This document shows positions 1-37,412 of a stretch of 64,000 nucleotides of DNA, piece by piece; positions within the stretch are counted from its first letter, which is position 1, and every line of letters begins with the position of its first letter. The notes below the pieces were generated by a model. The model was not told the origin of the DNA, searched no databases, and was given only the letters and a program-made list of their open reading frames with translations. The position numbers and the translations under genes were made by a program. This DNA comes from Micromonospora peucetia (GTDB lineage Bacteria > Actinomycetota > Actinomycetes > Mycobacteriales > Micromonosporaceae): positions 5,084,001 through 5,148,000 of the forward strand of contig NZ_FMIC01000002.1 in NCBI RefSeq assembly GCF_900091625.1, in the 5' to 3' direction.

Positions 1-1063
1 CAAGGCGGTACTGCACTCGCACGCGAGCCTGTTCGCCGCCACCCGGCACCTGCTCACCATGCCGCAGGCGCAGGGCACCCGCCGGATCCTCAACGCGCTG
101 CCCGCCCCGCACACCGCCACCGTGCTCATGGTCAACCAGGCCCTCGGCAACCGGGCCGAGATGTTGCTGCTGTCCGACCAGGGTGGGGAGCGGGTGCTGG
201 AGGCGATCCAGCGCTGGCGCCCCGACGGGGTGTTCGGGTTCTCGGTGACCTGGGCGGAGCTGGCCCGTTTCGACCTGGCCGCGTACGACCTGGACTCGGT
301 GTCGCTGTGGTTCAACACCGGCGACTGCTCGCACGAGCCGCACGTCCGCCGGCTGGTCGCGGTCGGCTCCCGCGACGTGGTGACCCGCGAGGGGGTCACC
401 CGGGTGCCCGGTTCCGTCTTCATCGACGGGCTCGGCTCCAGCGAGATGGGGCACTCGATGTTCCACATCACCCACCGCGTCGACACCGACCGGTACGGCC
501 GCTGCGTCGGCCGGCCCTACCAGTTCGCGAAGGTCGCCGTCCTCGACGCCGGGGGCGACCCGGTGCCGACCGGCCAGGTGGGCTGGCTCGGCATCGACTC
601 GCCGTCGCTGTTCCGCGGCTACTGGAACGACTCGGTCACCACGTACCGGTCCCGCCAGCGTGGCTGGTACCTCACCGGCGACCTGGTGTACGCCGACGAG
701 GAGGGCCGCTACCACCATCTGGACCGGGCCGTCGACGCGGTCGACGCGGGCGACGGGCGGTGGTTCTACACCGCGCTGTCCGAGGAGCGGGTCCTCGCCG
801 CCTGCCCGGACGTCACCGACTGCACCGTGGTGATCACCTCCGGGGCCGACCGGGTGGTCACCGACGTGCTGCTGGAACTCGCCGCCGGCGCCGATCCCGC
901 CGAGGACCGCACCGATCAGGTCCGGGCCGCGCTCGGTCCGGACGTCGGCGCGACCCTGCGCCGGGTCGTGCCGGTCCGCCCCGCCGACCTCCCGGTCACC
1001 GTCACCGGCAAGGTGCGCAAGGTGGTGCTGCGGGAGCGGTACCTCACCGAGTCGCCGTCATGA
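1..1063 (+). CDS. AMP-forming acyl-CoA/acyl-ACP ligase (ANL superfamily), 5' end outside window
   Basis: Open reading continues to the left edge in the frame starting at base 2, so this is the C-terminal part of a longer gene. The first visible residues (KAVLHSH) are the tail of the A3 phosphate-binding loop (usual TGxPKAV). Further motifs are GSSEMGHS (A5-like), YLTGDLVYADEEG with a following HHLDR (A7/A8) and a terminal VTVTGKVRK carrying the A10 lysine. The family activates a carboxylate as acyl-AMP and passes it to CoA or a carrier protein. It overlaps the downstream ketosynthase by an ATGA junction, so it belongs to the same operon. The specificity loop cannot be read reliably, so the substrate is unknown. 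An aromatic or short-chain acid would fit the context, but this is inference. Confidence 0.85.
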   Translation, partial: KAVLHSHASLFAATRHLLTMPQAQGTRRILNALPAPHTATVLMVNQALGNRAEMLLLSDQGGERVLEAIQRWRPDGVFGFSVTWAELARFDLAAYDLDSVSLWFNTGDCSHEPHVRRLVAVGSRDVVTREGVTRVPGSVFIDGLGSSEMGHSMFHITHRVDTDRYGRCVGRPYQFAKVAVLDAGGDPVPTGQVGWLGIDSPSLFRGYWNDSVTTYRSRQRGWYLTGDLVYADEEGRYHHLDRAVDAVDAGDGRWFYTALSEERVLAACPDVTDCTVVITSGADRVVTDVLLELAAGADPAEDRTDQVRAALGPDVGATLRRVVPVRPADLPVTVTGKVRKVVLRERYLTESPS

Positions 1064-2298
1064 CCGCCGTCATCACCGGGATGGGCCTGTTCACCCCCGT
1101 CGGGCGGGGCGTCGACGCCACCTTCGACGCGCTCTGCTCCGGCCGGTCCGGGCTGACCCGGCCGCCGGCCGGGCACCCCGCCGCCGAATCGCTGGAGGTT
1201 GCCGGCCTGCTCCCGGAGATCGATCCGCGTACCGTCGCCTCGGGGCCGGAGACCCGGGTGCTGGACCGGATCGTGGTGCTCGCCCTGCTCGCCGCCGCCG
1301 ACGCGCTCGCCGACGCCGGCATCGAGGTCGGCCGGGACGTGGACCCGGGGCGCGTCGGGGTGATCGTCGGCGGGGTCGGCGGGATGTCCACCCTGGAGTC
1401 GCAGGTGCTGGCCCGCGCCGAGCGCGGCCGGGCGGCGGTCAGCCCGTACCTGCTCACCGGCATCCTGCCGAACATGCCGTCGGCCCGGATCGCCATCCGG
1501 TACGGCATCCGCGGCTACACCTCGTCGGTCGGCACCGCCTGCGCCTCCGGCGCCCAGTCGGTCGCCGACGCGGTCCGGCTGATCCGCGCCGGGGAAGCCG
1601 ACGTGGTGCTCTGCGGGGCCAGCGAGGCGCCGCTGTTCCCCACCTTCGCCGATACTTTCGGCAACGCCCGGGCGCTGGCCCGGGGCTGGGCTGATCCGAC
1701 GGCGGCGAGCCGGCCGTTCGATGCCCGCCGCAACGGGTTCGTCCTCGCCGAGGGCGCGGCCCTGCTGGTGCTGGAACGCGCCGAACACGCCGCCGCCCGG
1801 GGCGCCACCGGCTACGCCGAGGTCGCCGGGTACGGGGCGACCACCGACGCGTACCACCCGACCGCCCCGCGCCCCGACGGTGCCGGCGCGGCGGAGTGCA
1901 TGCGGCGGGCGCTGGCCAGCGGCGGCGTTCCCGCCGCGCGGATCGGCTACGTCAACGCGCACGGCACCGGCACGAAACTCGGCGACATCGCCGAGACCAC
2001 CGCGTTGGTCGAGGTGTTCGGTGACGGCGGCGTGCCGGTCAGTTCCACCAAGGCGCTCACCGGCCATCTGCTCGGCGCGTCCGGGGCGCTGGAGGCGGCG
2101 GCCACCGCGCTGGCGCTCGGCCGGGGCCTGCTGCCACCGACGCACAACCTCGACGACCCGGACCCGGCCTGCCCGGCGGACCACATCCGCTGCGAGCCGC
2201 GCAGGACGGACACCGGATACGCGCTGACCAACTCCTTCGGCTTCGGCGGCCAGAACGTGAGCCTGCTGCTCGCGCGGGCCGCCCGGCCGAGGGGCTGA
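1060..2298 (+). CDS. Stand-alone beta-ketoacyl synthase (KAS II/FabF-like)
   Basis: 412 residues from the ATG that overlaps the upstream stop (ATGA), the usual length of a discrete KAS. The Cys-His-His triad is intact: C161 in TACASG, H301 in NAHGTGTKLGD and H336 in TGHLLGASGALEA. It therefore should perform decarboxylative Claisen condensation, unlike the chain-length-factor type that lacks the cysteine. No acyl carrier protein, ketoreductase or acyltransferase lies beside it in the visible part. The partner carrier protein must be left of the window, elsewhere, or borrowed from fatty acid synthesis. An alternative reading is a KS-like acyltransferase. In the same operon, the ligase could supply the primer and the E1 pair a second carbon unit (inference). 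Confidence 0.88.
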   Translation: MTAVITGMGLFTPVGRGVDATFDALCSGRSGLTRPPAGHPAAESLEVAGLLPEIDPRTVASGPETRVLDRIVVLALLAAADALADAGIEVGRDVDPGRVGVIVGGVGGMSTLESQVLARAERGRAAVSPYLLTGILPNMPSARIAIRYGIRGYTSSVGTACASGAQSVADAVRLIRAGEADVVLCGASEAPLFPTFADTFGNARALARGWADPTAASRPFDARRNGFVLAEGAALLVLERAEHAAARGATGYAEVAGYGATTDAYHPTAPRPDGAGAAECMRRALASGGVPAARIGYVNAHGTGTKLGDIAETTALVEVFGDGGVPVSSTKALTGHLLGASGALEAAATALALGRGLLPPTHNLDDPDPACPADHIRCEPRRTDTGYALTNSFGFGGQNVSLLLARAARPRG

Positions 2299-2367
2299 CG
2301 ACGTTCCACCCCGGGCGGACCGCGCCCGGACGGCAACCACGGGGGAACCGTGGAAAGGGCTGAGGAC

Positions 2368-3474
2368 ATGGACATCCGTGGGATCGACCACATCGAACTC
2401 TTCGTCGGGGACGCCCGGCAGGCGGCCTTCTACTTCGACCGGGCGGTCGGCTTCCAGCTGCGCGGCCAGGGCGGCCCCGAGACCGGGCTGGCCGACCAGC
2501 GGTCGCTGCTGCTGTGCCAGGCGGACATCCGGATGCTGCTCACCACCGGGCTCACCGCCGAACACCCGGCGTCGCGGTACGTGCGGCGGCACGGCGACGG
2601 CGTCGCCGTGGTCGCGCTGGAGGTCGACGACGCCGCCGGCGCGTACGCCGAGCTGGTGCGCCGGGGGGCGGCGGGGGTGACACCGCCGACCACCTTCACC
2701 GGCGCGGACGCCGAGGTGGTGACCGCCGAGGTGGGTGGCTTCGGCGACGTGCTGCACCGCCTGGTGTCCCGGCGTGGCGACCCGGGCGAGTTCCTGCCCG
2801 GGGCGGTCGAGATGACGCCCCCGGACGGCGGCGGCGGCAAGCTGCTCGCCGAGATCGACCACCTGGCGGTCTGCGTGCCACCCGGGCAGCTCGACGAGAC
2901 CGTCGGGCGCTACCGGGACGTGTTCGGGTTCGCGGAGATCTTCGCCGAACACGTCGAGGTCGCCGGGCAGGCGATGAAGTCCACGGTGGTGCAGAGCCCC
3001 TCGGGGCGGGTCACCCTGGTGCTGCTGGAGCCGGACCGCTCCCGCCGGGCGGGGCAGCTCGACGCGTTCCTGGACCAGCATGTCGGTGCCGGGGTGCAAC
3101 ACCTGGGGCTGCGCACCGACGACATCGTCACCGCCGTCGCCGCCCTCGCCGACCGGGGGGTGCGCTTCGCCGGCACCCCCGGCAGCTACTACGACGCCCT
3201 GGAGGCGCGGGTCGGCCCGGTGGACGCGTCGCTGGAGCGGCTGCGTGACCTCGGCGTGCTCGTCGACCGCGACCACGGCGGTCAGCTGTTGCAGATCTTC
3301 ACCGAATCCATGCACGTGCGCCGCACGCTCTTCCTGGAGCTGATCGAGCGGCGTGGGGCGCGGACCTTCGGCAGCGGCAACATCAGGGCGCTCTACGAGG
3401 CCAAGGAACGGGAACTGGCCGCGGCTGGGGCGAACCCCGTCGTGGCCGCGACACCGCAGGAGGTGCGGGCGTGA
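2368..3474 (+). CDS. hmaS: 4-hydroxymandelate synthase-like (HPPD/HmaS family) Fe(II) dioxygenase
   Basis: 368 residues. The ATG at 2368 has GGAAAGGG eight bases upstream; a GTG at 2350 is possible but poorly spaced. The protein is a two-domain vicinal-oxygen-chelate fold with the 2-His-1-Glu iron triad at H165 (EIDHLA), H245 (GVQHLG) and E324 (LFLELIER). HPPD and HmaS share the substrate 4-hydroxyphenylpyruvate. HPPD makes homogentisate and HmaS makes 4-hydroxymandelate. Around residues 215-222 this protein reads VTLVLLEP where true HPPDs read roughly VKxPxNEP. The flanking VVQSPSG and the C-terminal FGSGNIRALYEA also match glycopeptide-cluster HmaS as I remember it. I therefore prefer HmaS; HPPD remains possible. 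Its stop overlaps the next GTG start. Confidence 0.78.
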   Translation: MDIRGIDHIELFVGDARQAAFYFDRAVGFQLRGQGGPETGLADQRSLLLCQADIRMLLTTGLTAEHPASRYVRRHGDGVAVVALEVDDAAGAYAELVRRGAAGVTPPTTFTGADAEVVTAEVGGFGDVLHRLVSRRGDPGEFLPGAVEMTPPDGGGGKLLAEIDHLAVCVPPGQLDETVGRYRDVFGFAEIFAEHVEVAGQAMKSTVVQSPSGRVTLVLLEPDRSRRAGQLDAFLDQHVGAGVQHLGLRTDDIVTAVAALADRGVRFAGTPGSYYDALEARVGPVDASLERLRDLGVLVDRDHGGQLLQIFTESMHVRRTLFLELIERRGARTFGSGNIRALYEAKERELAAAGANPVVAATPQEVRA

Positions 3475-4400
3475 CCGCGACCGAGTTCGAGCTGACACTG
3501 ACCGTCGAGGAGGAGGCGCTGCTCCCCTCCGAGCAGGACGTGGCGTTCTACGCCGCGCACGGCTGGTACCTGTCGAAGAAGCTGCTCACCGACGACGAGG
3601 TGGACGCCCTCACGGCGGCCGCCGACCGCTACTACGACGGCGAGCGGGACCGCCGGCTGCCGGTACGCCCGCCGAGGCTCGCCTACTGGGACCCGTCGAA
3701 GGGCCCGGTGCAGCGGCACAACGACTACGTCCACCACGAGCACGACGGGCTCGGGGCGATCCTGCGCAAGCCGCTGATCGGCGCGGTCGCCGCCCGCCTC
3801 GCCCGGGCCACCGAGATCCGGATCTTCCAGTCCACGCTGATCTACAAGCCGCCGGTCTCCGGCGAGCCGTCGAACATCGTGCCCTGGCACTTCGACAAGC
3901 ACTACTGGGCGTCCTCGTCGTCGGAGAACATGCTCACCGCGTTCATCCCGATGCACGACTGCGGCGAGGAGATGGGCACCATCACGATGGTCGACGGCTC
4001 ACACCGCTGGACGGAGGTCGGCGCCGACGACACCGTGGTGCGCCACTTCGCCGAGCGCGACCGCGACCAGTTGGAGGAGATGCTCGCCGAGAACGCGGCC
4101 CACAACGGCGTGCGAATCCGCAAGGTGCCGATGGTGATCCCCAAGGGACACCTGAGCTTCCACCACTGCCGCACCTACCACGGCAGTGGCGCCAACGTCA
4201 GCGGTCGCCCGCGCCGGGCGATCTCGCTGCACCTGCAGGACGGCGACAACGCCTGGCGGGAGCATCCGCTCTCCGACGGCACCCTTGCCGCGTACAACCA
4301 CGACGTGCTGGTCCGCCGCACCCACGACGGGCGGCCGGACTACGCGGATCCCGAGTACTGCCCGGTCATCTGGCGCCACCGCGCCGCACAGGGAGGCTGA
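3471..4400 (+). CDS. PhyH-type Fe(II)/2-oxoglutarate dioxygenase
   Basis: 309 residues starting at a GTG that overlaps the upstream stop (GTGA). The metal site of phytanoyl-CoA dioxygenase-like enzymes is visible: H140 and D142 in PWHFDKHYW and the distal H237 in RTYHGSG, followed by the arginine-containing stretch [11 protein letters not shown] that should bind 2-oxoglutarate. Members hydroxylate, desaturate, halogenate or epoxidise a wide range of small molecules and carrier-bound acyl groups. HFD at the metal site argues for oxygenation; halogenases replace the acidic residue. Its place between hmaS and a DUF3050 gene suggests successive oxidations of the same intermediate. The substrate is not predictable from the sequence. 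Confidence 0.85.
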
Positions 4401-4401
4401 C

Positions 4402-5199
4402 ATGTCACGGTACGACTGGGGGAAGACCCACCCGGGGATCGAACGGCTGGAGAAGGCGGTGAGCGAACGCCGCGACGCGGTGGTCCGGCACCCGCTCTAC
4501 GCCGCGCTCGACACCCACGAGGCGCTGGTCACCTTCATGGAGCACCACGTCTTCGCCGTCTGGGACTTCATGTCCCTGCTGACGTCGTTGCAGCGGCAGC
4601 TCACCTGCGTCACCGTGCCGTGGATCCCGACCGGGCCCACCGGCAGCCGCCGCCTGATCAACGACATCGTGATGGTGGAGGAGAGCGACGAGTTGGGCGA
4701 CGGCTACATCAGCCACTTCGAGCTGTACGTGCGGGGCATGCGGGAGGCCGGCGCCGACACCACGGCCGTGGACAAGCTGGTCGATCTGCTGCGGGCCGGC
4801 CGGCCGGTGGCCGAGTCGCTGGTCGCCGCCGGTGTGCCGGGGCCGTCCGCGGCGTTCGCCGGCACCACCTGGCGGATCATCGAGACCACCCCGGTGCACT
4901 GCCAGGCCGCCGCCTTCGCCTTCGGCCGGGAAGACCTGATCCCCGACATGTTCACCCAGGTCGTCGCCGTCAACGAGCGCAGCCGGCGGCTGGACACGTT
5001 CGTCGACTACCTGGAGCGGCACATCGAGGTCGACGGCGAGCAGCACACCCCGATGGCGATGCAGATGCTCGCCGACCTGTGCGGCGACGACGACGCCAGG
5101 TGGCAGGAGTGCGCGGACACCGTCAACACCGCGCTCGCCGCCCGCGCCCGGCTGTGGGACGACATCCTCGCCGCGATCAAGGAGGGGCACGACCGGTGA
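4402..5199 (+). CDS. DUF3050 family protein, possible haem-oxygenase-fold metallo-oxidase
   Basis: 265 residues from ATG 4402, with GGGAGG five bases upstream and one base after the previous stop. The sequence carries the marks of DUF3050 as I remember the family: [14 protein letters not shown] (E47, H48, H49), EESDELG followed by SHFELY (E93/E94/E97 and H105), and [11 protein letters not shown] (D211 and H215 spaced D-x3-H). This pattern of acidic and histidine residues on separate helices resembles haem-oxygenase-like di-iron oxidases (UndA, SznF and CADD type). The exact ligand set cannot be assigned by eye. If metal-binding, it could do oxidative C-C or C-N cleavage or N-oxygenation. It sits next to a second, unrelated oxygenase in one operon. 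Confidence 0.8.
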
Positions 5200-6167
5200 C
5201 CGACGCCGACCCGGTCCGGCTCTACCGGACGGTACGGCTGATCCGCCGCTTCGAGGAGCGGGCGATCGAGCTGGTCCGCTCCGGGCACATCGTCGGCGGC
5301 ATCCACCCGTACCTCGGACAGGAGGGGATCGCCGCCGGGGTATGTGCCGCCCTGCGCGCCGCCGACGTGATCGCCGGCACCCACCGGGGGCACGGGCACG
5401 TGCTCGCCAAGGGCGCCGACCCGGCCCGGATGCTCGCCGAGCTGTGCGGCCGGGTCACCGGCCTCAACGCCGGCCGGGGCGGCTCGATGCACGCCGCCGA
5501 CTTCGGCGTCGGCGTGCTCGGCGCCAACGCCATCGTCGGCGCGTCCGGGGCGATCGTCACCGGCGCGGTGTGGGCACGCCGCCGCCGGGGCGAGGACACC
5601 GTCGGGGTGAGCTTCTTCGGCGACGGCGCGGTCAACGAGGGGATGCTGCTGGAGGCGTTCAACCTGGCCGCGCTGTGGCGGGTGCCGGTGCTGTTCGTCT
5701 GTGAGAACAACGGCTACGCCACCACCATGCCCGTCGCGGGCGCGGTCGCCGGCAGCATCCCCGGCCGGGCCGCCGCCTTCGGCATCCCGGCCGCCGTCTT
5801 GGACGGCCAGGACCCCGAGGCGGTACGCGACGCCACGGTGGCCGCCGTCGACCGGATGCGCGCCGGCGGTGGCCCCGAGCTGATCGAGGCCCGGACCTAC
5901 CGGTTCGACGCCCACCACACCTTCGAACACGCGGTACGTCTCGACTACCGCCCGCCCGACGAGGTGGCCCGGGGCCGATCCCGCGACCCGGTGGACATCC
6001 AGGGCGGCCGGCTCTCCGCCGCCGTTCGGACCGAGGTGGACGCCGAGGTGGAGTCCACGCTGGCGGCGGCCGTCGAGTTCGCGCTCGCCGGCGCAGAACC
6101 GGACCCGGCCGACGCCCTGGCCCATTTGTACGCCAGTGGGCTGACCGCCCGTACCGGAGGTGGCTGA
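5196..6167 (+). CDS. Thiamine-diphosphate dehydrogenase E1 alpha subunit, orphan
   Basis: 323 residues. The GTG at 5196 overlaps the upstream stop and has GGAGGGG eight bases upstream; earlier in-frame starts would lie inside the DUF3050 gene. The ThDP/Mg motif GDG (142-144) to ENN (170-172) is intact. The sequences GRGGSMH and the terminal domain resemble acetoin/pyruvate dehydrogenase E1 alpha. With the next gene it should form an alpha2beta2 enzyme that decarboxylates a 2-oxo acid and transfers the resulting acyl or acyloin unit. No lipoyl E2 or E3 gene is present here, unlike the complete set at 47-51 kb. The pair may therefore hand its unit to another acceptor, or borrow an E2. Confidence 0.88.
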
Positions 6168-7139
6168 ATGCCCAGGCTGTCCTACCGCAGGGCGCTCACC
6201 CGGGCGCTCGCCGACGAGTTGGCCCGCGACGAGTCGGTGTTCCTGCTCGGCGAGGACATCCGGGTGGCCGCCTCGAACGTCACCGCCGGGCTGTTCAGGC
6301 GGTTCGGCCCGGAACGGGTGCTCGACACCCCGCTGTCGGAGCAGGCGTTCACCAGCTTCGCCACCGGCGCGGCCCTGGCCGGGATGCGGCCGGTGGTCGA
6401 GTTCCAGATCCCGTCGCTGCTGTTCCTGGTCTTCGAGCAGATCGTCAACCACGCGCACAAGTTCCCGCTGATGACCGGCGGGCAGTGTTCGGCACCCGTC
6501 ACGTACCTGGTGCCGGGCTCCGGTTCCCGGACGGGCTGGGCGGGGCAGCACTCCGACCACCCGTACAGCCTCTTCGCCCACGTCGGGGTGACCACGGTCG
6601 TGCCGGCCACCCCGGCCGACGCGTACGGGCTGCTGGTGTCGGCGGTGCGGTGCGACGACCCGGTGGTGGTCTTCGCCCCGGCCGGGGCGCTGGACGTCCG
6701 CGACGACGTGGACCTCGCCGTGCTGGCCCCGGTGCCGCTCGGCCGGGGCCGGGTGCACCGCTTCGGCGACGACGTGACCGTGGTCGCGGTCGGGCACCTG
6801 GTGCACGACGCCCTCGCGGTCGCCGAGGAGTTGGCCGACCAGGTGTCGGTGGAGGTGTTCGACCCGCGCACGCTCTACCCGTTCGACTGGGACGGCCTTG
6901 CCGAGTCGGTGGCGCGCACCGGGCGGCTGGTGGTGGTGGACGACTCCAACCGCTCCTGCGGCATCGCCGGGGAGATCATCGCGACCATGGTCGAGCGGGT
7001 GCGGCTGGTCGCGCCGCCCCGCCGGGTCACCCGCCCCGACGGCGCGGTGCTGCCGTTCGCCCCGGCGCTGGACCGGGCCGTGCAGCCGAGCCGCGATCAA
7101 CTCCTGGCCGCCATCGGACACGTGATGAAGGACGGATGA
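6168..7139 (+). CDS. Thiamine-diphosphate dehydrogenase E1 beta subunit, orphan
   Basis: 323 residues, beginning directly after the alpha-subunit stop (TGAATG). It has the transketolase pyrimidine-binding and C-terminal domains of E1 beta, including FLLGEDIRV, the DTPLSEQAF segment with the conserved acidic residue region, GRVHRFGDDVTVVAVG, and DPRTLYPFDWD. It should complete the alpha2beta2 ThDP enzyme with its upstream partner. Pristinamycin PglB/PglC is a known precedent for E1-like pairs in phenylglycine-type pathways, acting on an aromatic 2-oxo acid. A role on an arylpyruvate or arylglyoxylate would be consistent with hmaS in the same operon, but that is inference. Confidence 0.88.
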   Translation: MPRLSYRRALTRALADELARDESVFLLGEDIRVAASNVTAGLFRRFGPERVLDTPLSEQAFTSFATGAALAGMRPVVEFQIPSLLFLVFEQIVNHAHKFPLMTGGQCSAPVTYLVPGSGSRTGWAGQHSDHPYSLFAHVGVTTVVPATPADAYGLLVSAVRCDDPVVVFAPAGALDVRDDVDLAVLAPVPLGRGRVHRFGDDVTVVAVGHLVHDALAVAEELADQVSVEVFDPRTLYPFDWDGLAESVARTGRLVVVDDSNRSCGIAGEIIATMVERVRLVAPPRRVTRPDGAVLPFAPALDRAVQPSRDQLLAAIGHVMKDG

Positions 7140-8497
7140 TGAACGACGCCGACTACCGCTGGCCCTCCGCCGCCAAGGCGTGGCTGGACCTGCCCGCGCC
7201 GATCCGCGCCGAGATGGTTGCCGCCGGGGCCGAGTCCTGGCGGGAGGTGTTCGACGGCCGGGCCACGTACAACAAGCAGTGGCGGCTGGCCCGGCCGCCG
7301 GTGATGGACGAGACCTCGCTCGGCGTGCTCAACGCCGTCTCCGACCGCCTCGCCCAGCTCATCTTCGAGGCGTGCCGGCGGCGGGCCGGCACGGCGGGGG
7401 AGCTGCGCCGGCTGCTGAACGTGCCCGACGGCGAGACCCGGCTGCTCGACGACGACGAGCCGCTGACCGAGGCGCTGCTGGACGCGTTCCGGCCGGACGT
7501 GCTGCTCTCCGACGGGGTGCCCCGCTTCGTGGAATACAACATCGACAGCAGCCTCGGCGGCGCGTTCGACGCGGACACCACCGTGCGCCGCTTCGTCGAC
7601 GTCTACCGGCGGCGCGGCCTCACCGACCGGGCCCGGCTGGCGGCGGCCCCCTCGGCGGTGGACCGGCGGTTCGCCGCGATCCGCGCCGGCCTCGGCCTGC
7701 CCGACGGTGCCCGGGTCGCCATGCTGATCGACTTCGACGCCGAGTACCCGGGACTCGACGACCCACAGCGGTTCATCCGGCTGCTGTCGCCGGTGGTCGA
7801 GCGGGCCGCTGTGAGCGGCATGGATCTGGTCATCGCGCCCGTCTCCCAGGTCACCCTCGACGACCGCAGCCGGCTGGTCGCCGACGGTGCCCCGGTCGAC
7901 GGGGTGTTCCGGCTCTTCGTGCCCAACCGGGTCACCCCGAGCGCCGGGGTGGACGCCCTGGCGGCGGGGCTGGCGGCAGGCACGGTGCCGATGTGGGTGT
8001 CGGTGGCGGCCTGGCTGGTCGCCAACAAGCGCGCCTTCGCCTGGCTGTGGGAGGACGCCGAGACGCTGCCGGCCGAGGACCGGGACCTGGTGCACCGGTA
8101 CGTGCCGCGTACCTGGTCGCTGACGGCGGGACTGCTCGACCGGGCGGTACGCGACCGGGCCGCCCTGGTGGCGAAGCCGGCCGACGGTTCCGCCGGGGTG
8201 GACGTGCTGATCGGCCGGGAGACCGACGCCGACGCGTGGCGCGACGGGCTGACCCGCGCCGTCGGGCGGGGCGGCTTCATCCTCCAGGAGTACGTGAAGG
8301 CCGACGACGTCCCGCTGGACTTCGTGCATATCGAGACCGGTGAGACGGTGAGCGCCGAGGTCCCGTACAGCATCGCCCCGTACCTGTTCGGCCGCCGGCC
8401 GGCGGGCGCCTGCATCCGCACCGGCTTCCCCGGCTGCGACGCAGTCCTCAACCTGGCCCGCGGCGTCCTCCTCTCCGGCCTCCTGGTGACCGACTGA
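7139..8497 (+). CDS. ATP-grasp ligase (glutathionylspermidine synthase-like)
   Basis: 452 residues from ATG 7139, chosen because AAGGA lies six bases upstream; an ATG three bases earlier overlaps the E1 beta stop and is equally readable. The FVEYNIDSSLGG segment (central) and VAKPADGSAGVDV with K346, followed by ILQEYVKADD as hinge, are typical of ATP-grasp enzymes of the glutathionylspermidine-synthase kind. The C-terminal RTGFPGCDAVLNLARGV would supply Mg/ATP contacts. Such enzymes form an acyl phosphate and couple it to an amine, giving an amide. It is the last gene of the operon and, with no NRPS in view, the likeliest bond-forming step. The amine and acid partners are unknown. Confidence 0.75.
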   Translation: MNDADYRWPSAAKAWLDLPAPIRAEMVAAGAESWREVFDGRATYNKQWRLARPPVMDETSLGVLNAVSDRLAQLIFEACRRRAGTAGELRRLLNVPDGETRLLDDDEPLTEALLDAFRPDVLLSDGVPRFVEYNIDSSLGGAFDADTTVRRFVDVYRRRGLTDRARLAAAPSAVDRRFAAIRAGLGLPDGARVAMLIDFDAEYPGLDDPQRFIRLLSPVVERAAVSGMDLVIAPVSQVTLDDRSRLVADGAPVDGVFRLFVPNRVTPSAGVDALAAGLAAGTVPMWVSVAAWLVANKRAFAWLWEDAETLPAEDRDLVHRYVPRTWSLTAGLLDRAVRDRAALVAKPADGSAGVDVLIGRETDADAWRDGLTRAVGRGGFILQEYVKADDVPLDFVHIETGETVSAEVPYSIAPYLFGRRPAGACIRTGFPGCDAVLNLARGVLLSGLLVTD

Positions 8498-8641: not shown

Positions 8642-8726
8642 CGGTCAGGCCGGTCAGGCCGGTCACGTCGGCGGTGCGGGCCACGCCGAGGACGGGCGTG
8701 GCGGGGTGGTCGGGCAGGATCGGCGG

Positions 8727-19493: not shown

Positions 19494-20177
19494 TCAAAGA
19501 TGAGGCACCAGGTGGGTGCCGAGGCGGCGGACGGTCTCGGCTGCGGCGATGGCGTCGCTGCGGGCGCTGCCGTGCCGGCCGTCGCTGCTGTACATCGACG
19601 GATCGGCGGTGAGCGGGTGGTCGGTGAGCCGTACGTGCAGGGTGCCGAGCCGCTCCGCGAGGGCCCCGGTGTGCGCGGAGAGCCGTCGCATCCGCTCGCC
19701 CAGGCCGGCGCGGTGCCGCTCCGGCACGGCGGGGCTGAGCGACACGTCGAACATGCCGACGGTGATCACGTCCGCCCCGGCGGCCTGGAGCGCCTCGATC
19801 ATGGCGGTCAGTTCGGCGTCGACCGCGTCCGCGTCGTACCCCCGTGCGAAGGCGTCGTTGCCGCCGCAGACCACCAGCGCCAGGTCGGGGCGGAACGCCA
19901 GGGCCGGGGCGAGCTGGGCGGCGCGCACCTCGTGCGCCCGCAGCCCCCGCAGGCCCAGATTGAGGTACGCCAGATCCGGCCGGACGGCGCGGAGTTCGGC
20001 GGCGATCCGGTCGGCCCACTGTACGTCGGGATAGCCGTCGGCGGGCTCGCATAGCCCTTCCGCCACGCTGTCGCCCAACACCGCGAACCGTCGCCACGGG
20101 TGCTCGCGCAGCAGCCCCGCGCTCTCCCCGTCGCGCAGGCACCACGGATCCACTGCTTCGCTCAACGTCGATGCCAT
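19494..20177 (-). CDS. SGNH/GDSL-type hydrolase, cytoplasmic
   Basis: 227 residues from ATG 20177. Block I FAVLGDSVAEG supplies the nucleophile serine, block III LVVCGGNDAF the Gly/Asn oxyanion-hole residues, and block V SSDGRHGSARS the catalytic Asp-x-x-His. There is no signal peptide. Such enzymes are esterases or deacetylases acting on small esters. The substrate is unknown. Monocistronic, convergent with the membrane protein gene. Confidence 0.88.
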   Translation of the reverse strand: MASTLSEAVDPWCLRDGESAGLLREHPWRRFAVLGDSVAEGLCEPADGYPDVQWADRIAAELRAVRPDLAYLNLGLRGLRAHEVRAAQLAPALAFRPDLALVVCGGNDAFARGYDADAVDAELTAMIEALQAAGADVITVGMFDVSLSPAVPERHRAGLGERMRRLSAHTGALAERLGTLHVRLTDHPLTADPSMYSSDGRHGSARSDAIAAAETVRRLGTHLVPHL

Positions 20178-29384: not shown

Positions 29385-30620
29385 CTACGCCCGACCTACG
29401 ACACGCGGTTTCCGCTCGGCCGGCGCCGGGGCGGGCCGGGGGCGCAGGGCGGGCAGCAACGGCAGCAGGGTGACGACGAGGCAGAATGCCGTCATGGCCA
29501 GCAGGGCGGTGCCGAGGCCGAGCGCCGTCACCGACCAGCCGCCCAGCAGCGCGCCCAGCGGCAGGCCCGCGAACGCCAGCGACCCGGCCAGCCCGATCAC
29601 CCGGGTCTGCAGTTCGGCCGGCACCCGCTCGTAGATCGCGACCCCCAGCAGCGGGTTCACCGCAGCGATGCCGATGCCGGACGCGAACGTCACCGCCAGC
29701 ACCACCGCCAGTTCCTCGCTCAGCGCCAGGACCAACAGCCGCGGGGCGCCACCGACCGCCGCGCCGACCACGAAGGTGAGGTACCGGGGCAGCCGGGGGC
29801 CGAAGGCAGTGAACAGCAGATTGCCCAGCAGCGCGCCGGCCGAGAACGCCCCGAGCAGCAGGCCCAGCCCGGCGGGGCTGCGCAGCACGTCGGCCACCCA
29901 GAGCGGGATGTAGACCGCGACGCTCGCGTTGACCGCCATGTTCAGCGCCGAGATCACCAGCAGCATGGTCAGCAGCATCCGGTCGCGGCCCAGGTGACGG
30001 AACCCGCCCGCGAGCGCCCGCAGGTATCCCTCCGGCTGTGCCGGCGTGGCCGGGGGTGCCGGCGGGCGGACCAGCAGCCCGACCAGCAGGGCGCAGACGG
30101 CGAAGCTGGCGGCGTCGATGAGGAGTGCCTGCGTCACCCCGAACCACCAGATGAGCAGCCCGCCCAGCCCCGCGCCGAGCAGGGTGACCAGTCGGCCCAG
30201 CCCGTCGTACACGGAGGTGAGCCGGATCAGCCGCACCCCGGCGGCCTCGGCGGCCGGGCGGAACATCACGTTCTTGACCCGGTCGCCGACGCCCCGCAGC
30301 GCGCCGACCACGGCGACCAGGGCGACCAGCGCCGGAAAGCCGAGCCACGGGGTGAGGGCCACCGCCACCATCAGAGCGGCGCTGCCGGCGTCGGCCAGGA
30401 TCGAGGTGCGGCGCAGCCCGATCCGGTCCGCCCAGGGCGTGCCCAGGGCGCTGGAGAGCAGGTAGGGCAGCGTCTCGGCGGCGGCCACCACGCCCATCTT
30501 CGCCGGGCTGCCGGTGGTCTCCAGCACCAGCCAGGGGATGGCCACCACCGAGATCCGGCTGCCCAGGTTGGAGATCAGGTCGGCGGCGACCAGGACGGTC
30601 AGTTCCCGCCGGGGAGTCAC
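29385..30620 (-). CDS. MFS exporter (enterobactin-exporter/MFS_3 type)
   Basis: 411 residues from GTG 30620, which overlaps the stop of the upstream ligase (GTGA). About twelve spans. The start ADLISNLGSRISVVAIPWLV and ADRIGLRRTSILADAGSAA are typical of MFS_3 proteins that export siderophores and other natural products. Translational coupling to an AMP-forming ligase makes it the probable exporter for the product made with that ligase. Confidence 0.9.
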   Translation of the reverse strand: MTPRRELTVLVAADLISNLGSRISVVAIPWLVLETTGSPAKMGVVAAAETLPYLLSSALGTPWADRIGLRRTSILADAGSAALMVAVALTPWLGFPALVALVAVVGALRGVGDRVKNVMFRPAAEAAGVRLIRLTSVYDGLGRLVTLLGAGLGGLLIWWFGVTQALLIDAASFAVCALLVGLLVRPPAPPATPAQPEGYLRALAGGFRHLGRDRMLLTMLLVISALNMAVNASVAVYIPLWVADVLRSPAGLGLLLGAFSAGALLGNLLFTAFGPRLPRYLTFVVGAAVGGAPRLLVLALSEELAVVLAVTFASGIGIAAVNPLLGVAIYERVPAELQTRVIGLAGSLAFAGLPLGALLGGWSVTALGLGTALLAMTAFCLVVTLLPLLPALRPRPAPAPAERKPRVVGRA

Positions 30621-32230
30621 GCCAGGCTGCCGATCGACGCCTCCGGGTGCTCGACCGCGCTCGGATGGTCCGCGGCATACCGGGCCCGCAGCGCGCGTTT
30701 GTCCACCTTGGCGGAGCGGTTGAGCGGCAGCCGGTCGACGAACTCCACCCCGCCCGGCGCCCAGGTGTCGCTCAGCTCGGCGGTCACCAGGTCGATCAGC
30801 TCTCCGGCGGTCACCGTCGCGCCGGGCACCGGCACCACGAAGGCGTACGGCAGTTCGCCGGCCGCCTCGTCCGGCACGCCGATCACCGCTGCCGCCCGGA
30901 CCTGCGGGTGCCCGGCCAGGACGTCCTCGATCGGGCGGGAGTGGATCGGCCAGCTGCGCCGCCGGGTGAGGATCCGGTCCTGCAACCGGTCGACGAGGTA
31001 GAGGTAGCCGTCGGCGTCGAGGTGCCCGACGTCGCGGGTCCGGACCCAGCCGTCGACCAGCGTCTCGGCGGTCAGTTCGGGCTGGCCGTGGTAGCCGGCG
31101 AAGCGCAGGTCGGTGTGCACCCACACCTCGCCGTTCTCGCCGGGCGGCAGCACCGTGCCGTCCTCGGCGCGGATCTCGATGCGCACGTCGCCGTAGGGTC
31201 GGCCGCAGGAGCGTAGCCGCTGCGGGTGCTCCGGGTCGTCGGTCAGCCCCGGCAGGGCGGTGACCACGACCGCCTCGCTGAGGCCGTACACGAGGCGCAG
31301 CACCGGGCCGAAGCGGGTGATCGCCTGGCGCAGCCGGGCGGGCGCGACGGGCCCGGCGCCCACGTTGAACATGAACATGGTGGAGAAGTCCGCGCCGTCC
31401 AGGGCAGGGTGGTCGAGCAGTTCGTAGAGCATCGGCGGGGTGACGAACGTCGAGTTGATCCGCTCCCGCCCGACGGTGTCGATGAACCGCGCCGGGTCCC
31501 AGCCGTCGTGCGGGAACAGCACCCCGCCGGTGAAGAGGTTGAACAGCGTGGTGATCTGACCGCTGGCCAGCCACATCGGCGAGTGCGACAGGTGCCGCAG
31601 CGGCGGATGCCCGGCGGCCCGGAAGCCGGCGGCCAGGGCGAGGATCTGCGCGTAGAAGCTCTCCCGGTGGTGCACCAGCTTCGGCGTGCCGGTGGTGCCG
31701 CTGGTCTGTAGGAATGACTCCGGCACCGGCACCTCGGCCGGCGGCTCGAACCCGTCGGCGCGGCCGTCCGCCGTGGCACGCTTTGTCTCGGCGACGAGGT
31801 CCGCTCCCACACCGCCCGGGCCGAGGCAGAACACGGGCACGCCGGGCAGCCCGGCGGCCAGCTCCGGGCCCAGGCTGGCCGGGTCCCGTGCGTCGTAGAC
31901 GAACGCGTCGGGGCGGGCCAGCCGGACGAACTCGTCCACCTCCCGGCGCGAGGTGACCGGGGCGATCCACATCGTCCGGCAGCCCAGCAGGTGCAGGGCG
32001 AGCTGCACCAGCGGCCCCTCCACCGGGTTGCCGAGCGCGAGCAGCACCGCGTGCCCCGGCCGTACGCCGTGCCCGGACAGGACCGCGGCGAGCCCGCGCA
32101 CCCGCGCGGCGACGTCGGTGTAGCTGAGCCGGCATCCGCCTTCGACCAGCGCCTCCCGGTCGCCGAAGCCGGCGAACAGCTCCAGCGCGCGGTGCACGTA
32201 GCCGGACCGTGGCTCCGGTCGGTCGGTCAT
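30617..32230 (-). CDS. AMP-forming acyl ligase (ANL superfamily)
   Basis: 537 residues from ATG 32230, with GGAGGG seven bases upstream. Motifs: A3 TSGTTGTPKLVHH, A5 LVYGLSEAVVV, A7/A8 VDGWVRTRDVGHLDADGYLY and LVDRLQDRI, A10 LNRSAKVDKRAL. It should activate a carboxylic acid for CoA or carrier-protein loading. It is related in kind to the truncated ligase at the left edge but clearly a different protein. It forms an operon with the MFS exporter and diverges from the secreted SGNH esterase. The acid substrate cannot be read from the sequence. Confidence 0.9.
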   Translation of the reverse strand: MTDRPEPRSGYVHRALELFAGFGDREALVEGGCRLSYTDVAARVRGLAAVLSGHGVRPGHAVLLALGNPVEGPLVQLALHLLGCRTMWIAPVTSRREVDEFVRLARPDAFVYDARDPASLGPELAAGLPGVPVFCLGPGGVGADLVAETKRATADGRADGFEPPAEVPVPESFLQTSGTTGTPKLVHHRESFYAQILALAAGFRAAGHPPLRHLSHSPMWLASGQITTLFNLFTGGVLFPHDGWDPARFIDTVGRERINSTFVTPPMLYELLDHPALDGADFSTMFMFNVGAGPVAPARLRQAITRFGPVLRLVYGLSEAVVVTALPGLTDDPEHPQRLRSCGRPYGDVRIEIRAEDGTVLPPGENGEVWVHTDLRFAGYHGQPELTAETLVDGWVRTRDVGHLDADGYLYLVDRLQDRILTRRRSWPIHSRPIEDVLAGHPQVRAAAVIGVPDEAAGELPYAFVVPVPGATVTAGELIDLVTAELSDTWAPGGVEFVDRLPLNRSAKVDKRALRARYAADHPSAVEHPEASIGSLA

Positions 32231-33901: not shown

Positions 33902-34921
33902 GTGAGCGTTCATCCCCAGGTGGCGGCGTACCGGGCCGCCCGTGAGGCGGCCGGCACCCCGCCGCTGTACACCCAGACCCTGGCCGAGGCCCGCGCCGCC
34001 GACCTCGCCGCGATCCGCGCCGGCGGCGGCGCGGTCGAGCCGGTGCACGAGGTACGCGACACGCGCGTGCCCGGCCCGGCGGGCGACCTGCCGGTGCGGA
34101 TCCACCGGCCGGCGGGGCAGGGACCGCTGCCCACCCTGGTCTACTTCTTCGGCGGTGGCTGGACGCTGGGCAGCATCGACACCGCCGACGGCATCTGCCG
34201 GCGGCTGGCCAACGCGGTGCCCTGCCAGGTGGTCACCGTCGGCTACCGGCTGGCCCCGGAGCACCCCTTCCCGGCGGCCGTGCACGACTGCCACGCGGCC
34301 ACCCGGTGGATCGTCGACAACCCGGAGGAGTTCGGCGTCGACCCGGAGCGGGTGGCTGTCGGCGGGGACAGCGCAGGCGGCAACCTCGCCGCCGCCGTCA
34401 CCCTGCTGGCCCGGGAGCGCGGCGGGCCCCGGCTCGCCGCCCAACTGCTGGTGTACCCGAACACCGACCAGAGCGCCGAACCCGACGGCGACGGTGCGGA
34501 CCCGCTGCTGTTCAACCGCCGCTCGGTCGCCTGGTACCGGGGCCACTACCTCGCCGGCCCCGCCGACGCGTGGCACCCGCTGGCGTCGCCGCTGCGCGCC
34601 GAGGACCTGACCGGCCTGCCCCCGGCGCTGGTGATCACCGCCGAGCACGACCCGCTGTGCGCCGAGGGGGAGCGGTACGCGCGGCGGCTGCGCGACGCCG
34701 GGGTGCCCACCACCCGCACCCGGTACGCCGGCATGATCCACGGCTTCTTCGCCATGCCCGGCGCGTTCGATGACGGCCGCCGTGCCCAGGACCAGGCCGC
34801 CGCGTTCCTGCGCGAGCGGTTCGGGGCGACGGCGACCGGAGCTACGGCCACCGGGGCTACTGGCAGCGAGGCGACCGCCACCGGGGCGGCGTCGGTGGGA
34901 AGGGAGACTGGTGATGGTTGA
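33902..34921 (+). CDS. Alpha/beta hydrolase, hormone-sensitive-lipase family, variant oxyanion motif
   Basis: 339 residues from GTG 33902 with GGAGGG six bases upstream. The nucleophile elbow is GGDSAGGNL, the acid is in ITAEHDPLCAEG and the histidine in MIHGFFAMPGAF. The conserved HGGGW of the family reads FGGGW here (VYFFGGGWTLG), so the first histidine is replaced by phenylalanine. The C-terminus ends in a low-complexity tail of repeated ATATGA/TGS blocks encoded by imperfect direct repeats. The stop overlaps the start of hmo, so it belongs to the hmo-hpgT operon. It might hydrolyse an ester or thioester of the pathway, or be a tailoring/release enzyme (inference). Confidence 0.87.
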   Translation: MSVHPQVAAYRAAREAAGTPPLYTQTLAEARAADLAAIRAGGGAVEPVHEVRDTRVPGPAGDLPVRIHRPAGQGPLPTLVYFFGGGWTLGSIDTADGICRRLANAVPCQVVTVGYRLAPEHPFPAAVHDCHAATRWIVDNPEEFGVDPERVAVGGDSAGGNLAAAVTLLARERGGPRLAAQLLVYPNTDQSAEPDGDGADPLLFNRRSVAWYRGHYLAGPADAWHPLASPLRAEDLTGLPPALVITAEHDPLCAEGERYARRLRDAGVPTTRTRYAGMIHGFFAMPGAFDDGRRAQDQAAAFLRERFGATATGATATGATGSEATATGAASVGRETGDG

Positions 34922-36038
34922 GGGCGTGCTGCCGACGTCGGAGCTGCCGGTGGCACAGCCGTCGCCGGCCAGCCTGGCCGACTTCGCCGAGCCGGCCCGG
35001 GCGGTACTCCCACCCGACGTGTGGGACTACATCGACGGTGGCAGCGGTGCCGAGACGACGCTCGCCGCCAACCGCCGCGCGCTGGACCGGGTGGCCGTGC
35101 TGCCCCGGGTGCTGCGCGGCGTGCCCACCCCCCGCACCGAGGCGCGGCTGCTCGGCACGTCGTACGCCATGCCGGTGGCCGTGGCGCCGATGGCGTACCA
35201 GCGGCTGGTGCACCCCGACGGGGAGTTGGCGCTGGCCGCCGCCGCGGGCGCGGCCGGCGTGCCGTACCTGGCCAGCACCCTGAGCAGCGTGCCGATCGAG
35301 CAGATCGCCGAGACGGGCGCGACGGTCTGGTTCCAGCTCTACTGGCTGCGCGACCGGGGCCTGGTCGCCGACCTGCTGGACCGGGCGCACGCGGCGGGCT
35401 GCACGGCGCTGACGGTCACCGTGGACGTGCCGATCCTCGGCCCCCGGCTGCGCGACGTGCGCAACGCGTTCGCCATCCCGCCGCACGTGGTGGCGGCCAA
35501 CCTGCCGGCCGGTCGGGACGACCTCGCGCACACCGCCACCCCGGGCGTGTCCGCCATCGCCGCGCACACCGGCGAGGTCTTCGCGCCCGCGCTGACCTGG
35601 GCCGACCTGGAGTGGCTGCGTGGCCGTACCGCCCTGCCGCTGGTGGTGAAGGGCGTTCTCGACCCGCGTGACGCGGAGTTGGCGGTGGCCGCCGGCGCGG
35701 ACGCCGTGGTGGTCTCCAACCACGGTGGCCGGCAACTCGACGGCGCACCGGCCACCGCCACCATGTTGCCGGAGGTGGTGACGGCGGTGGCCGACCGGTG
35801 CGAGGTGCTGCTGGACAGCGGCGTGCGCGACGGCGTCGACGTGCTGCGCGCGCTCGCCCTCGGCGCGCGGGGGGTGCTGGTCGGCCGGCCCATGCTGTGG
35901 GCGCTCGCCGCCGGCGGCCGGGCCGGCGCGCAGGCGGCGCTGGCGCTGCTGGCCGGCGAGTTCCGCGACGCCCTGGCGCTGGCCGGCTGCGCCGACCCGG
36001 AGGCCGCCCGGGAGTTGCGCGTGCTGACGGAGGGCTGA
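34914..36038 (+). CDS. hmo: 4-hydroxymandelate oxidase-like FMN enzyme
   Basis: 374 residues from ATG 34914 (AGGGAG seven bases upstream); GTG 34911 is an alternative. It is an FMN-dependent 2-hydroxyacid oxidase of the lactate/mandelate/glycolate group. The catalytic histidine and substrate arginine are H270 and R273 in VVSNHGGRQLDG, the flavin lysine is in LPLVVKGVLDP, and the active-site tyrosine lies in WFQLYWLRD. In glycopeptide pathways Hmo oxidises 4-hydroxymandelate to 4-hydroxyphenylglyoxylate. The overall sequence resembles Hmo as I remember it more than lactate oxidase. Next to an HpgT-type gene this assignment is strong. It overlaps the upstream hydrolase by eight bases. Confidence 0.85.
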   Translation: MVEGVLPTSELPVAQPSPASLADFAEPARAVLPPDVWDYIDGGSGAETTLAANRRALDRVAVLPRVLRGVPTPRTEARLLGTSYAMPVAVAPMAYQRLVHPDGELALAAAAGAAGVPYLASTLSSVPIEQIAETGATVWFQLYWLRDRGLVADLLDRAHAAGCTALTVTVDVPILGPRLRDVRNAFAIPPHVVAANLPAGRDDLAHTATPGVSAIAAHTGEVFAPALTWADLEWLRGRTALPLVVKGVLDPRDAELAVAAGADAVVVSNHGGRQLDGAPATATMLPEVVTAVADRCEVLLDSGVRDGVDVLRALALGARGVLVGRPMLWALAAGGRAGAQAALALLAGEFRDALALAGCADPEAARELRVLTEG

Positions 36039-36100
36039 GCGGTGTCCGACCCGGACCCGCGCGTGCTGACGGAGGGCTTTGCGGTGGCCGACCCGGTGGA
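36017..36100 (+). repeat. 42-bp tandem duplication spanning hmo stop and hpgT start
   Basis: Copies 36017-36058 and 36059-36100 agree at about 35 of 42 positions, identical over the first 20 (GCGCGTGCTGACGGAGGGCT). Each copy contains GGAGGG and a GTG at the same spacing (36042 and 36084). The duplication therefore gives hpgT two equivalent initiation sites. The hmo stop survives only in copy 1. Confidence 0.85.
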
Positions 36101-37412
36101 CCTGCGCGTCGCCGACCTGCACCCGGCGGTCGACGACCCGGCGCTGAACTCGATGAACTTCCTCAACGAGGTGGCCCAGCACTACCCCGACGCGGTGTCG
36201 CTGGCGGCCGGCCGGCCGTACGAGGAGTTCTTCGACGTCGCGGCGCTGCCCCGGCACCTGGAGACGTTCCGCCGGCACCTGGCCGACGACCTCGGCCAGA
36301 GCCCCGCGCAGGTGCACCGGACCCTGTTCCAGTACGGCCGCACCAAGGGCATCGTGCATCATCTCGTCGCCCGCAACCTTGCCGTCGACGAGGGCATCAC
36401 GGTCGACCCGGAGGCGATCGTGGTGACGGTCGGCTGCCAGGAGGCGATGTTCCTGGTGCTGCGGGCGCTGCGGGCCGACCCGCGCGACCTGTTGCTCGCC
36501 GTGGCCCCGACGTACGTCGGGCTGACCGGCGCCGCCCGGCTGCTGGACCTGCCGGTGCGGCCGGTGGCGGGTGGCCCGACCGGGATCGACCTGGCCGACC
36601 TGCGCGAGCAGGTGCGTCGGGCCCGGGCGGCAGGGCTGCGTCCACGTGCCTGCTACGTGATGCCGGACTTCGCGAACCCGTCCGGGACCAGCATCGGCCT
36701 GGCCGACCGGCAGCGGCTGCTCGACCTGGCCGTTGAGGAGGACCTGCTGCTGCTGGAGGACAACCCGTACGGCCTCTTTCCCGCCGGAGACGCCGGCCGG
36801 CCGCCCACGCTCAAGGCGCTGGACACCGCGCGGCGGGTGGTCTACCTGGGCTCGTTCGCCAAGACGGTGCTGCCCGGTGCCCGCGTGGGCTACCTGGTCG
36901 CCGACCAGCGGGTCGCCTTGGCGGAAGGTACGGTGGGCCTGCTCGCCGACCAGCTTGCCAAGATCAAGAGCATGGTCACGGTGAACACCTCGGCGATCGC
37001 CCAGGCCGTGGTCGGCGGCGCGCTGCTGGAGCACGGGTGCAGCCTCGTGGCGGCCACCGTCCGGGAGCGGGCCGCGTACGGCCGCAACCTGCGCCACCTG
37101 GTCGACGGCCTGGCCCGGCGGTTCCCGGCGGACACCTCGCCGGTGCGGTGGAACGTCCCGGCCGGCGGGTTCTTCGTCGTGGTCACCGTGCCGTTCGCCG
37201 TCGACGACGCGCTGCTGCACCGCTCCGCCCGCGAGTACGGCCTGCTCTGGACGCCGATGGCGCACTTCTACGACGACGGCGCCCCGGTCGACGCGCTGCG
37301 GCTGTCGGTCAGTGCCGTCACCCCGGAACAGATCGACCTCGGGCTGGACCGGCTGGCCGCCCTGGTCGCCGACGAGACGGCCCGACGGGCGGCGACCGCC
37401 GACGTGGGATGA
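36042..37412 (+). CDS. hpgT: 4-hydroxyphenylglycine aminotransferase-like PLP enzyme
   Basis: 456 residues from GTG 36042, or 442 from GTG 36084; the start region is duplicated, so both are possible. It is a fold-type I class I/II aminotransferase with the PLP lysine K274 (counted from 36042) in YLGSFAKTVLPG, plus DFANPSG and LLLEDNPYG for cofactor contacts. The segments DPALNSMNFLNEV, LAAGRPYEEFF and FQYGRTKGI resemble glycopeptide HpgT. HpgT converts 4-hydroxyphenylglyoxylate to 4-hydroxyphenylglycine and can use tyrosine as donor, regenerating 4-hydroxyphenylpyruvate for HmaS. It ends the operon. Confidence 0.85.
   Translation: MSDPDPRVLTEGFAVADPVDLRVADLHPAVDDPALNSMNFLNEVAQHYPDAVSLAAGRPYEEFFDVAALPRHLETFRRHLADDLGQSPAQVHRTLFQYGRTKGIVHHLVARNLAVDEGITVDPEAIVVTVGCQEAMFLVLRALRADPRDLLLAVAPTYVGLTGAARLLDLPVRPVAGGPTGIDLADLREQVRRARAAGLRPRACYVMPDFANPSGTSIGLADRQRLLDLAVEEDLLLLEDNPYGLFPAGDAGRPPTLKALDTARRVVYLGSFAKTVLPGARVGYLVADQRVALAEGTVGLLADQLAKIKSMVTVNTSAIAQAVVGGALLEHGCSLVAATVRERAAYGRNLRHLVDGLARRFPADTSPVRWNVPAGGFFVVVTVPFAVDDALLHRSAREYGLLWTPMAHFYDDGAPVDALRLSVSAVTPEQIDLGLDRLAALVADETARRAATADVG

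Follow-up and report, generated by a model that had tools for sequence, protein, structure and literature searches.

Several described pathways contain parts of the gene set analysed here. The mgo operon encodes a DUF3050 protein, MgoB (PMC3298696); the ham and mgo/pvf operons are homologous, with ham directing diazeniumdiolate synthesis (PMC5878181, PMC10194917), and by operon homology HamA and PvfA are the counterparts of MgoB (PMC5878181, PMC11659414, PMC3298696, PMC10194917). HamA is described as dispensable for forming the hydroxylamine intermediates, and feeding dihydrosydnone N-oxide enables hamA, hamB and hamE mutants to produce fragin and valdiazen (PMC11659414); from the rescue of the hamA mutant by feeding, we place HamA between the hydroxylamine intermediates and dihydrosydnone N-oxide. 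In kinamycin and lomaiviticin biosynthesis, amidase, glutamine synthetase, ferredoxin and KinJ genes (KinI-M) constitute the hydrazine set (PMC6133997, PMC12154649, PMC6470958). The orphan biosynthetic gene cluster pks3 of Salinispora tropica, 18 of whose 25 proteins were detected in that organism, has been suggested to produce a spore pigment (PMC7888443). Here we set beside these systems a locus of Micromonospora peucetia, at the start of a stretch of 64,000 nucleotides (contig NZ_FMIC01000002.1, forward-strand positions 5,084,001 to 5,148,000; G000:C2:5084001-5148000 in a 7.37-Mb genome), hereafter the window. Negative coordinates denote bases left of window position 1, the letters J-W denote same-strand genes (a cassette, J-V, and an end gene, W), and L- and G-numbers denote fetched loci and genomes, respectively.

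The first 8,497 bases of the window are best explained as the 3' end of a larger orphan cluster whose products synthesise 4-hydroxyphenylglycine (Hpg) and tether an Hpg-derived unit to small carrier proteins, with a nitrogen-nitrogen (N-N) bond probably added, an explanation we hold with as much doubt as confidence; N-N chemistry taken by itself stands at about even or better. A first-pass annotation had called this interval an undescribed biosynthetic operon of eight genes in one direction, and all eight are indeed called on the + strand. Gene P (1..1063 in the window, whose edge truncates a 538-aa gene with a true span of -553..1063) encodes an ANL enzyme of the diazotase/N-nitrosylase clade, and is followed by the ketosynthase (KS) gene Q (1060..2298; PF00109/PF02801), the HmaS-like gene R of the HPPD family (2368..3474), the PhyH Fe(II)/2-oxoglutarate oxygenase gene S (3471..4400; PF05721), gene T for a DUF3050 haem-oxygenase-like diiron protein (4402..5199; PF11251), the thiamine diphosphate-dependent E1 alpha and beta genes U (5196..6167; PF00676) and V (6168..7139; PF02779/PF02780), and W, for a predicted circularly permuted ATP-grasp C-N ligase (7136..8497). 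Seven of the eight family names were matched; W has no Pfam match over cut-off (best E 0.15), yet its AF2 model (pLDDT 93) has the ATP-grasp fold, with glutathione and glutathionylspermidine synthetases as best Foldseek matches. The best named protein matches are from Micromonospora (W 93%, T 98%). The genes are less tightly packed than had been stated: genes overlap or abut at five of the seven junctions, rather than six, and Q and R stand 69 bases apart (51 if GTG at 2350 is the start), where the widest gap had been put at one base. The ligase/KS, HmaS/PhyH, DUF3050/E1 alpha and E1 beta/ATP-grasp pairs each overlap by 4 bases, the two E1 genes abut, and one base separates PhyH from DUF3050. 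Nor is the interval a complete operon, as same-strand genes run on to about -13768 with a few gaps; extending the sequence leftward, as the annotation had advised, brought in two carriers, a second ligase and a pair resembling a KS and a cyclisation factor (CYF), then a type II polyketide synthase (PKS).

The cassette is conserved to a degree that places the gene set beyond chance. Among named loci (the best 80 of 461 confirmed relatives of an Actinophytocola DUF3050 query, contig ends included, counting matches of at least 40% identity), 73 carry R, S and T side by side, 69 of those having U and V as separate genes; J is present in 66, L in 67, M in 66, N in 61, O in 62, P in 68, Q in 70 and W in 58. 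Lack of joint conservation among relatives had been named in advance as grounds for giving up the operon, and the co-occurrence search found the reverse. Cassette J-V recurs in near-identical order in Micromonospora, Salinispora, Kribbella, Actinophytocola, Catellatospora and Dactylosporangium, and two same-genus genomes (G196, G095) keep this order, type II PKS genes standing next to the cassette. Order shifts also occur, P standing last in Dactylosporangium and first in Phytohabitans, and in Phytohabitans suffuscus (L149, 10793-12760) a single 655-aa frame is a fusion, its residues 20-236 matching U and 334-655 matching V. Exchangeable extra genes include an O-methyltransferase in Catellatospora; an O-methyltransferase, a P450, a KSIII-acyl carrier protein (ACP) and a condensation-domain protein in Actinophytocola L086; and condensation, KSIII and ACP genes in Dactylosporangium. 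W is present in one to three copies in Kribbella-type loci, and two or three W-like ATP-grasp genes were observed in L091, L108, L131, L132 and L137 (four Kribbella, one titled Streptomyces sp. SID13031). The amide-forming enzyme of the first-pass annotation is an exchangeable end piece, which the stretches fetched for several genera do not show; distant W homologues beyond G095 and G196 lay in unrelated loci where inspected (L030, L031). T or a homologue occurs in 132 of 354 genomes of the family, and 20 hand-picked family stretches around T held the cassette in ten, part of it in one and none of it in nine. A phylum-wide DUF3050 search gave 2 of 396, both of the genus of the window. The claim of an undescribed operon stands as regards a conserved biosynthetic set, and fails in that the S. 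tropica counterpart appears to be listed already as orphan pks3. The pathway is real, widespread and orphan: our search of the accessible literature, which took in few subscription journals and no bioRxiv, showed no title or passage that describes this gene set or names a product.

Two proteins of the cassette point to N-N chemistry. The first is P, previously described as an acid-activating ligase, which on scores rather than a tree belongs to the nitrite-activating ANL clade of AvaA6 and Tri17. It matches the NCBIfam AvaA6 diazotase model at 487 bits, with the next family more than threefold lower at 141, and its PDB matches are 8ztz (392 bits), 8tf7 and 9bq0 (318), and 9xb8 (273), other listed ligases scoring at most 89; both 8tf7 and 9bq0 are Tri17 (PMC11705231). 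On these PDB scores we rejected the idea that P is, by its nearest relatives, an ordinary acyl-CoA ligase. A GDxxHxxH motif, picked from alignments, is present in 68 of 69 P orthologues, the exception being an 84-aa fragment, and is absent both from J and from the ligase at 30617-32230. P resembles AvaA6/Tri17/CreM-type enzymes (PMC11705231) in full-length similarity and the common motif, and differs from them in scoring below the AvaA6 cut-off and in having no evident arylamine or hydrazone substrate. From this clade membership we infer that P uses nitrite.

The second is T, which matches PF11251 at 318 bits (cut-off 22.2) and PDB entry 9vwb at 193 bits. Residues E93, H105, E177, H207, D211 and H215 are conserved in at least 97% of 79 aligned rows; taken number for number, they coincide with the metal site given in PMC4520260. 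Homologues recur beside N-N genes. Five loci (L078, L079, L159, L164, L165) have a 66-71% homologue flanked by glutamine-synthetase-like and ferredoxin genes, beside amidase and KinJ-like genes; by Lom numbering it would occupy the Lom31 position, which is skipped in the quoted list of the kinamycin and lomaiviticin set (PMC6133997, PMC12154649, PMC6470958). The window differs in that KinJ has no match in its genome and the other genes of that set were not seen among the scanned cluster genes. Likewise, the ham/mgo/pvf systems share the DUF3050 protein with the cassette, and differ from it in that neither a nonribosomal peptide synthetase (NRPS) nor an AurF-like N-oxygenase was found among the genes scanned here (PMC5878181, PMC11659414, PMC3298696, PMC10194917). 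In two further loci (L072, 7228-12786; L083, 6995-12531) a 73% homologue stands beside a ligase, an amine oxidase and a protein of the diazotase clade (AvaA6 scores of 361 and 344 bits); L083 additionally encodes a peptidyl carrier protein and, beyond T, GSH-type ATP-grasp, AMP-binding and MFS genes. These settings permit a bolder proposal, which we regard as speculative and rather unlikely as a whole: that DUF3050 proteins are diiron enzymes which convert an amine to nitrite, or to a nitrosating species of like effect, for several N-N machineries, namely ATP-dependent diazotases (in the cassette and in L072/L083), the haem-ferredoxin hydrazine synthases of the KinJ kind and the ham/mgo/pvf diazeniumdiolate route, that they offer a second way besides the CreE-CreD nitrosuccinate pathway, and that the cassette makes a new Hpg-based diazo or N-nitroso compound.

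The distribution of nitrosuccinate lyase bears on this proposal. In 11 genomes chosen by hand, a lyase model with a cut-off of 650 bits was exceeded in none of eight T-bearing genomes (G000, G683, G663, G526, G528, G713, G095, G196) and in two of three KinJ genomes that lack T within the fetched stretch (G112 and G101, with G019 at 340 bits only), a contrast with a one-tailed probability of 3/55 by hand calculation, the sampling not being independent. Only G683 and G663 of the eight are known to carry KinJ of the kinamycin type. In G101 the lyase gene lies beside the KinJ set. Sub-cut-off matches in T-bearing genomes (G095 414 bits, G713 378, G683 328, G526 279, G528 253, G663 133) are taken as related lyases; the model also matched 11 of 14 control genomes below cut-off. 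A CreD-type nitrosuccinate lyase, which usually partners enzymes of the clade of P, had no match at E 1e-20 in the window genome (G000) or in G196, and the four Lyase_1 proteins of the former are fumarase-like, ArgH (L191, presumably, from its sequence), an ArgH-like paralogue and PurB. On these 11 chosen genomes, the contrast fits replacement of CreE-CreD by DUF3050.

The likely use of Hpg by the cluster is suggested by R together with two genes some 30 kb away. A 4-hydroxymandelate oxidase gene (Hmo, of the FMN hydroxyacid oxidases; 34914..36038, + strand) and, adjoining it, a candidate HpgT gene for a class I/II aminotransferase (36042..37412, +; PF00155) fit the Hpg pathway with R. PDB scores place Hmo there, its best match being 5zzp, deposited as a 4-hydroxymandelate oxidase (380 bits), ahead of 7f22, deposited as an L-lactate oxidase (351), and hydroxyacid oxidase 1 (286). 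The aminotransferase matched its class I/II family only, no HpgT model or structure being among its matches; it adjoins Hmo in the window and in L130, L149, L152 and L187, and in L158 the cassette lies between the two. For R, the best PDB match is 2r5v (309 bits), which we take to be HmaS, followed by 7yvv, deposited as HPPD (287), and 1t47 (231). The HmaS identity proposed earlier is favoured by this match and by the distant partner genes, and opposed by the NCBIfam result considered below. The genus has 90 genomes with full-length T matches of at least 85%, and in 76 of them Hmo is no more than 40 kb from T, at a median distance of 14.1 kb (a count of listed Hmo matches of at least 69% identity that left out the T fragments in G553 and G581 and paralogues at 42-44%); in the remainder Hmo is on another contig (nine), further off (two) or missing (three). 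Among the Hmo matches listed, 43 genomes have Hmo and no full T. Of ten Hmo loci fetched, five of the genus and one of another genus (G696) are taken up below; two more of the genus keep the downstream genes only, and two of a third genus combine Hmo with an HmaS-like gene and the aminotransferase in other settings.

The counterparts of genes that accompany the cassette in other genera map to 29385-37412, about 20 kb from W. Besides the two Hpg genes they include an MFS exporter (29385..30620, - strand; PF07690; 42 of 80 loci), an acyl-CoA ligase (30617..32230, -; PF00501; 42 of 80) and an alpha/beta hydrolase (33902..34921, +; PF07859), found in 8 of 80 loci, L121, L149, L158 and L163 among them, in a sample where most flanks stop short of this gene. 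A GDSL hydrolase gene (19494..20153, -; PF13472) often stands beside the cassette (49 of 80). Some 20 kb of other genes (8631-28900), including an APH-family gene (8631-9698), intervene between W and the linked downstream genes in the window; in relatives, cassette and downstream genes are nearly adjacent. Within this interval, 11360-14011 (-) encodes a large protein, presumably regulator-like, with homologues of 33-41% near DUF3050 in L072, L083 and L121.

Taken together, these genes suggest a scheme. R, Hmo and the aminotransferase would make Hpg, a role that rests on a structure match for Hmo, and on family and neighbourhood for the other two; the upstream ligase J could load Hpg or its keto acid onto one of two carriers, L or M. 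T might then N-oxygenate an amine or release nitrite, as its genomic context hints, and P, given its clade, may adenylate nitrite and so nitrosate or diazotise an amine. S (in which His140-x-Asp142 is conserved over a 75-row alignment) may hydroxylate, Q and the upstream N-O pair, to judge from fold and family, could extend or cyclise the chain, U-V may provide or transfer a 2-oxo-acid-derived acyl group, and W, or the condensation-domain protein in other genera, would cap the product through an amide before putative export by the MFS protein.

A number of observations weigh against this scheme. The product and the roles given to the E1 pair and to N-O are guesses. The only NCBIfam model over cut-off for R is the HPPD equivalog TIGR01263 (338 bits), so that homogentisate is a possible product of R. 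P scores half of the AvaA6 equivalog cut-off (487 against 975 bits) and falls outside the aryl-diazotase equivalog, so that family membership does not tell which substrate it takes. In L121, L158 and L163 P is absent within the fetched DNA. T is lost from G696, of another genus, where about 23 N-terminal codons remain between S and U (L187, 369-472) and S, U, V, W and the downstream and Hpg genes are retained; in G553 (C1:4532700-4532843) and G581 (C5:168192-168332) only an N-terminal piece of 47-48 residues matches. DUF3050 also occurs outside N-N-like settings, beside GcpE and LytB-polyprenyl synthase genes in Actinomadura spongiicola (L160, 6813-10792), and the AMP-binding neighbour of a 44% homologue in L081 is outside the diazotase clade (83 bits to AvaA6, best match 129). 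T was not found in the fetched stretches, where alone it was sought, of any of the three sets located through KinJ itself, and the T loci L073, L075, L077, L082, L123 and L162, which are without the cassette, lay outside the family scan. No dedicated nitrite source is known in the window genome. Finally, mangotoxin production persisted in an mgoB mutant, if slightly reduced (PMC3298696).

The alternative that best survives has P as a diverged acyl-ACP ligase and T performing C-H or C-N oxidation, in a pathway to an Hpg- or tyrosine-derived polyketide, such as a cyclised Hpg-malonyl compound, with no N-N bond; we consider this possible, and distinctly less probable than the scheme above. The low equivalog score of P speaks for it, as does the want of a nitrosuccinate lyase match in the window genome, and Q and the KS-CYF-like pair N-O offer a carbon route. 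Q retains Cys161, His301 and His336 (64-row alignment), and upstream of P lie further genes, all on the + strand. J, an AMP ligase called on the left-joined stretch and identified by family scan (start -4813 or -4687, end -3428), is followed by the ACP gene L (-2714..-2448; carrier serine S38 kept), the small ACP-like gene M (-2448..-2203; carrier serine S33 kept), the KS gene N (-2126..-1128, with a longer in-frame ATG at -2210) and O (-1131..-550), a truncated protein resembling a chain length factor (CLF) or CYF, by a weak AmcG match and its predicted structure. A further candidate gene, K (-3431..-2817, 204 aa), was rejected; it has no Pfam or NCBIfam match, and an opposite-strand reading frame is often called instead. 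In N (L010, 15874-16872), Cys94 and His259 are kept, and at the position of the first catalytic His, 43 of 53 alignment rows have Asn and ten have His. The model of O (pLDDT 85) is nearest to the small 'bacterial ketosynthase' chain of 7f28 and to the ApeC chain length factor. The N-O pair, beside two ACPs and ligases, looks like the KS-CYF pair AmcF-AmcG of cispentacin, short of the family cut-offs, and differs in that an AmcE-like hot-dog gene was not seen here and the first catalytic His of N is mostly Asn (PMC10698177). Membership of the cispentacin type was rejected, since every tested Amc cut-off was missed (AmcB with L, 21 against 80 bits; AmcF with N, 147 against 325; AmcG with O, 30 against 80); an AmcG model search gave 12 matches among 296, none above cut-off. 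Against a plain acyl-ACP ligase stand the scores of P to four PDB sequences, two of them Tri17, far above those of the other ligases, its GDxxHxxH motif, and the recurrence of DUF3050 alongside N-N genes.

Less probable still, and in our view improbable, is that J-W are a tailoring extension of the neighbouring type II PKS, the two yielding one joint aromatic pigment. The first-pass annotation had seen no modular PKS or NRPS, and a type II PKS lies upstream of the window; no modular PKS or NRPS core was found among the scanned genes, which were part of those in the window. Left of J, from -13768 on the + strand, Pfam identifies A (cyclase), B (ACC alpha/beta), C (BCCP), D (biotin carboxylase), E (ACP-cyclase), F (cupin), G (KS-alpha), H (CLF) and I (ABM); A and E-I constitute a whiE-like set of KS-alpha, CLF, ACP, cyclases, cupin and ABM, which we take to be of the spore-pigment type. 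G683, presumably S. tropica CNB-440, carries the cassette on the minus strand (L080) in an order that fits pks3. The accession numbering of the pks3 proteins also fits, ligase A4X7T8 corresponding to P, KS A4X7U0 to N and ligase A4X7U3 to J (PMC7888443), and the cassette is probably listed within pks3 of S. tropica CNB-440. The fear that standard detection might miss such a cluster thus appears unfounded, and with 18 of 25 proteins detected the cluster is probably expressed. That paper treats pks3 as one orphan polyketide cluster, and its accessible portions do not state an Hpg pathway, a diazotase clade or a role for DUF3050. The pigment suggested there favours a joint product, as does the PKS immediately left of the cassette in Micromonospora and Salinispora, the only genera in which G, H or I were found beside it (14 of 39 named loci bearing J, the other 25 having less than 2.5 kb of sequence left of J). 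Opposed to this, where 2.7-5.3 kb left of the cassette could be inspected in other genera (14 stretches), no gene resembling A-I was seen, a PKS elsewhere in those genomes being possible; Kribbella and the Actinophytocola loci L086 and L088, with less than 1.8 kb there, are uninformative. Moreover, five of seven Hmo loci of the genus from genomes without full T (L180, L181, L183, L184, L186) keep the type II PKS with a 4-hydroxymandelate-oxidase-like gene beside it and lack the cassette at the site, by which PKS and cassette are separable modules. A role for the operon in the catabolism or housekeeping metabolism of aromatic amino acids is very improbable: the wide occurrence of T within the family agrees with it, and E1, HPPD-family and hydroxyacid-oxidase proteins also serve central or catabolic routes, but two carriers, a KS/CYF-like pair, an exporter, patchy presence and exchangeable end enzymes argue for a natural-product pathway.

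The cassette is common in Micromonospora and its relatives, and appears to be expressed in S. tropica, on the accessible proteomic account. It points to a testable role for DUF3050, a family of unknown function: as these proteins are tied to N-N settings, and one is accompanied here by a diazotase-clade enzyme, there is a single protein to purify and assay.

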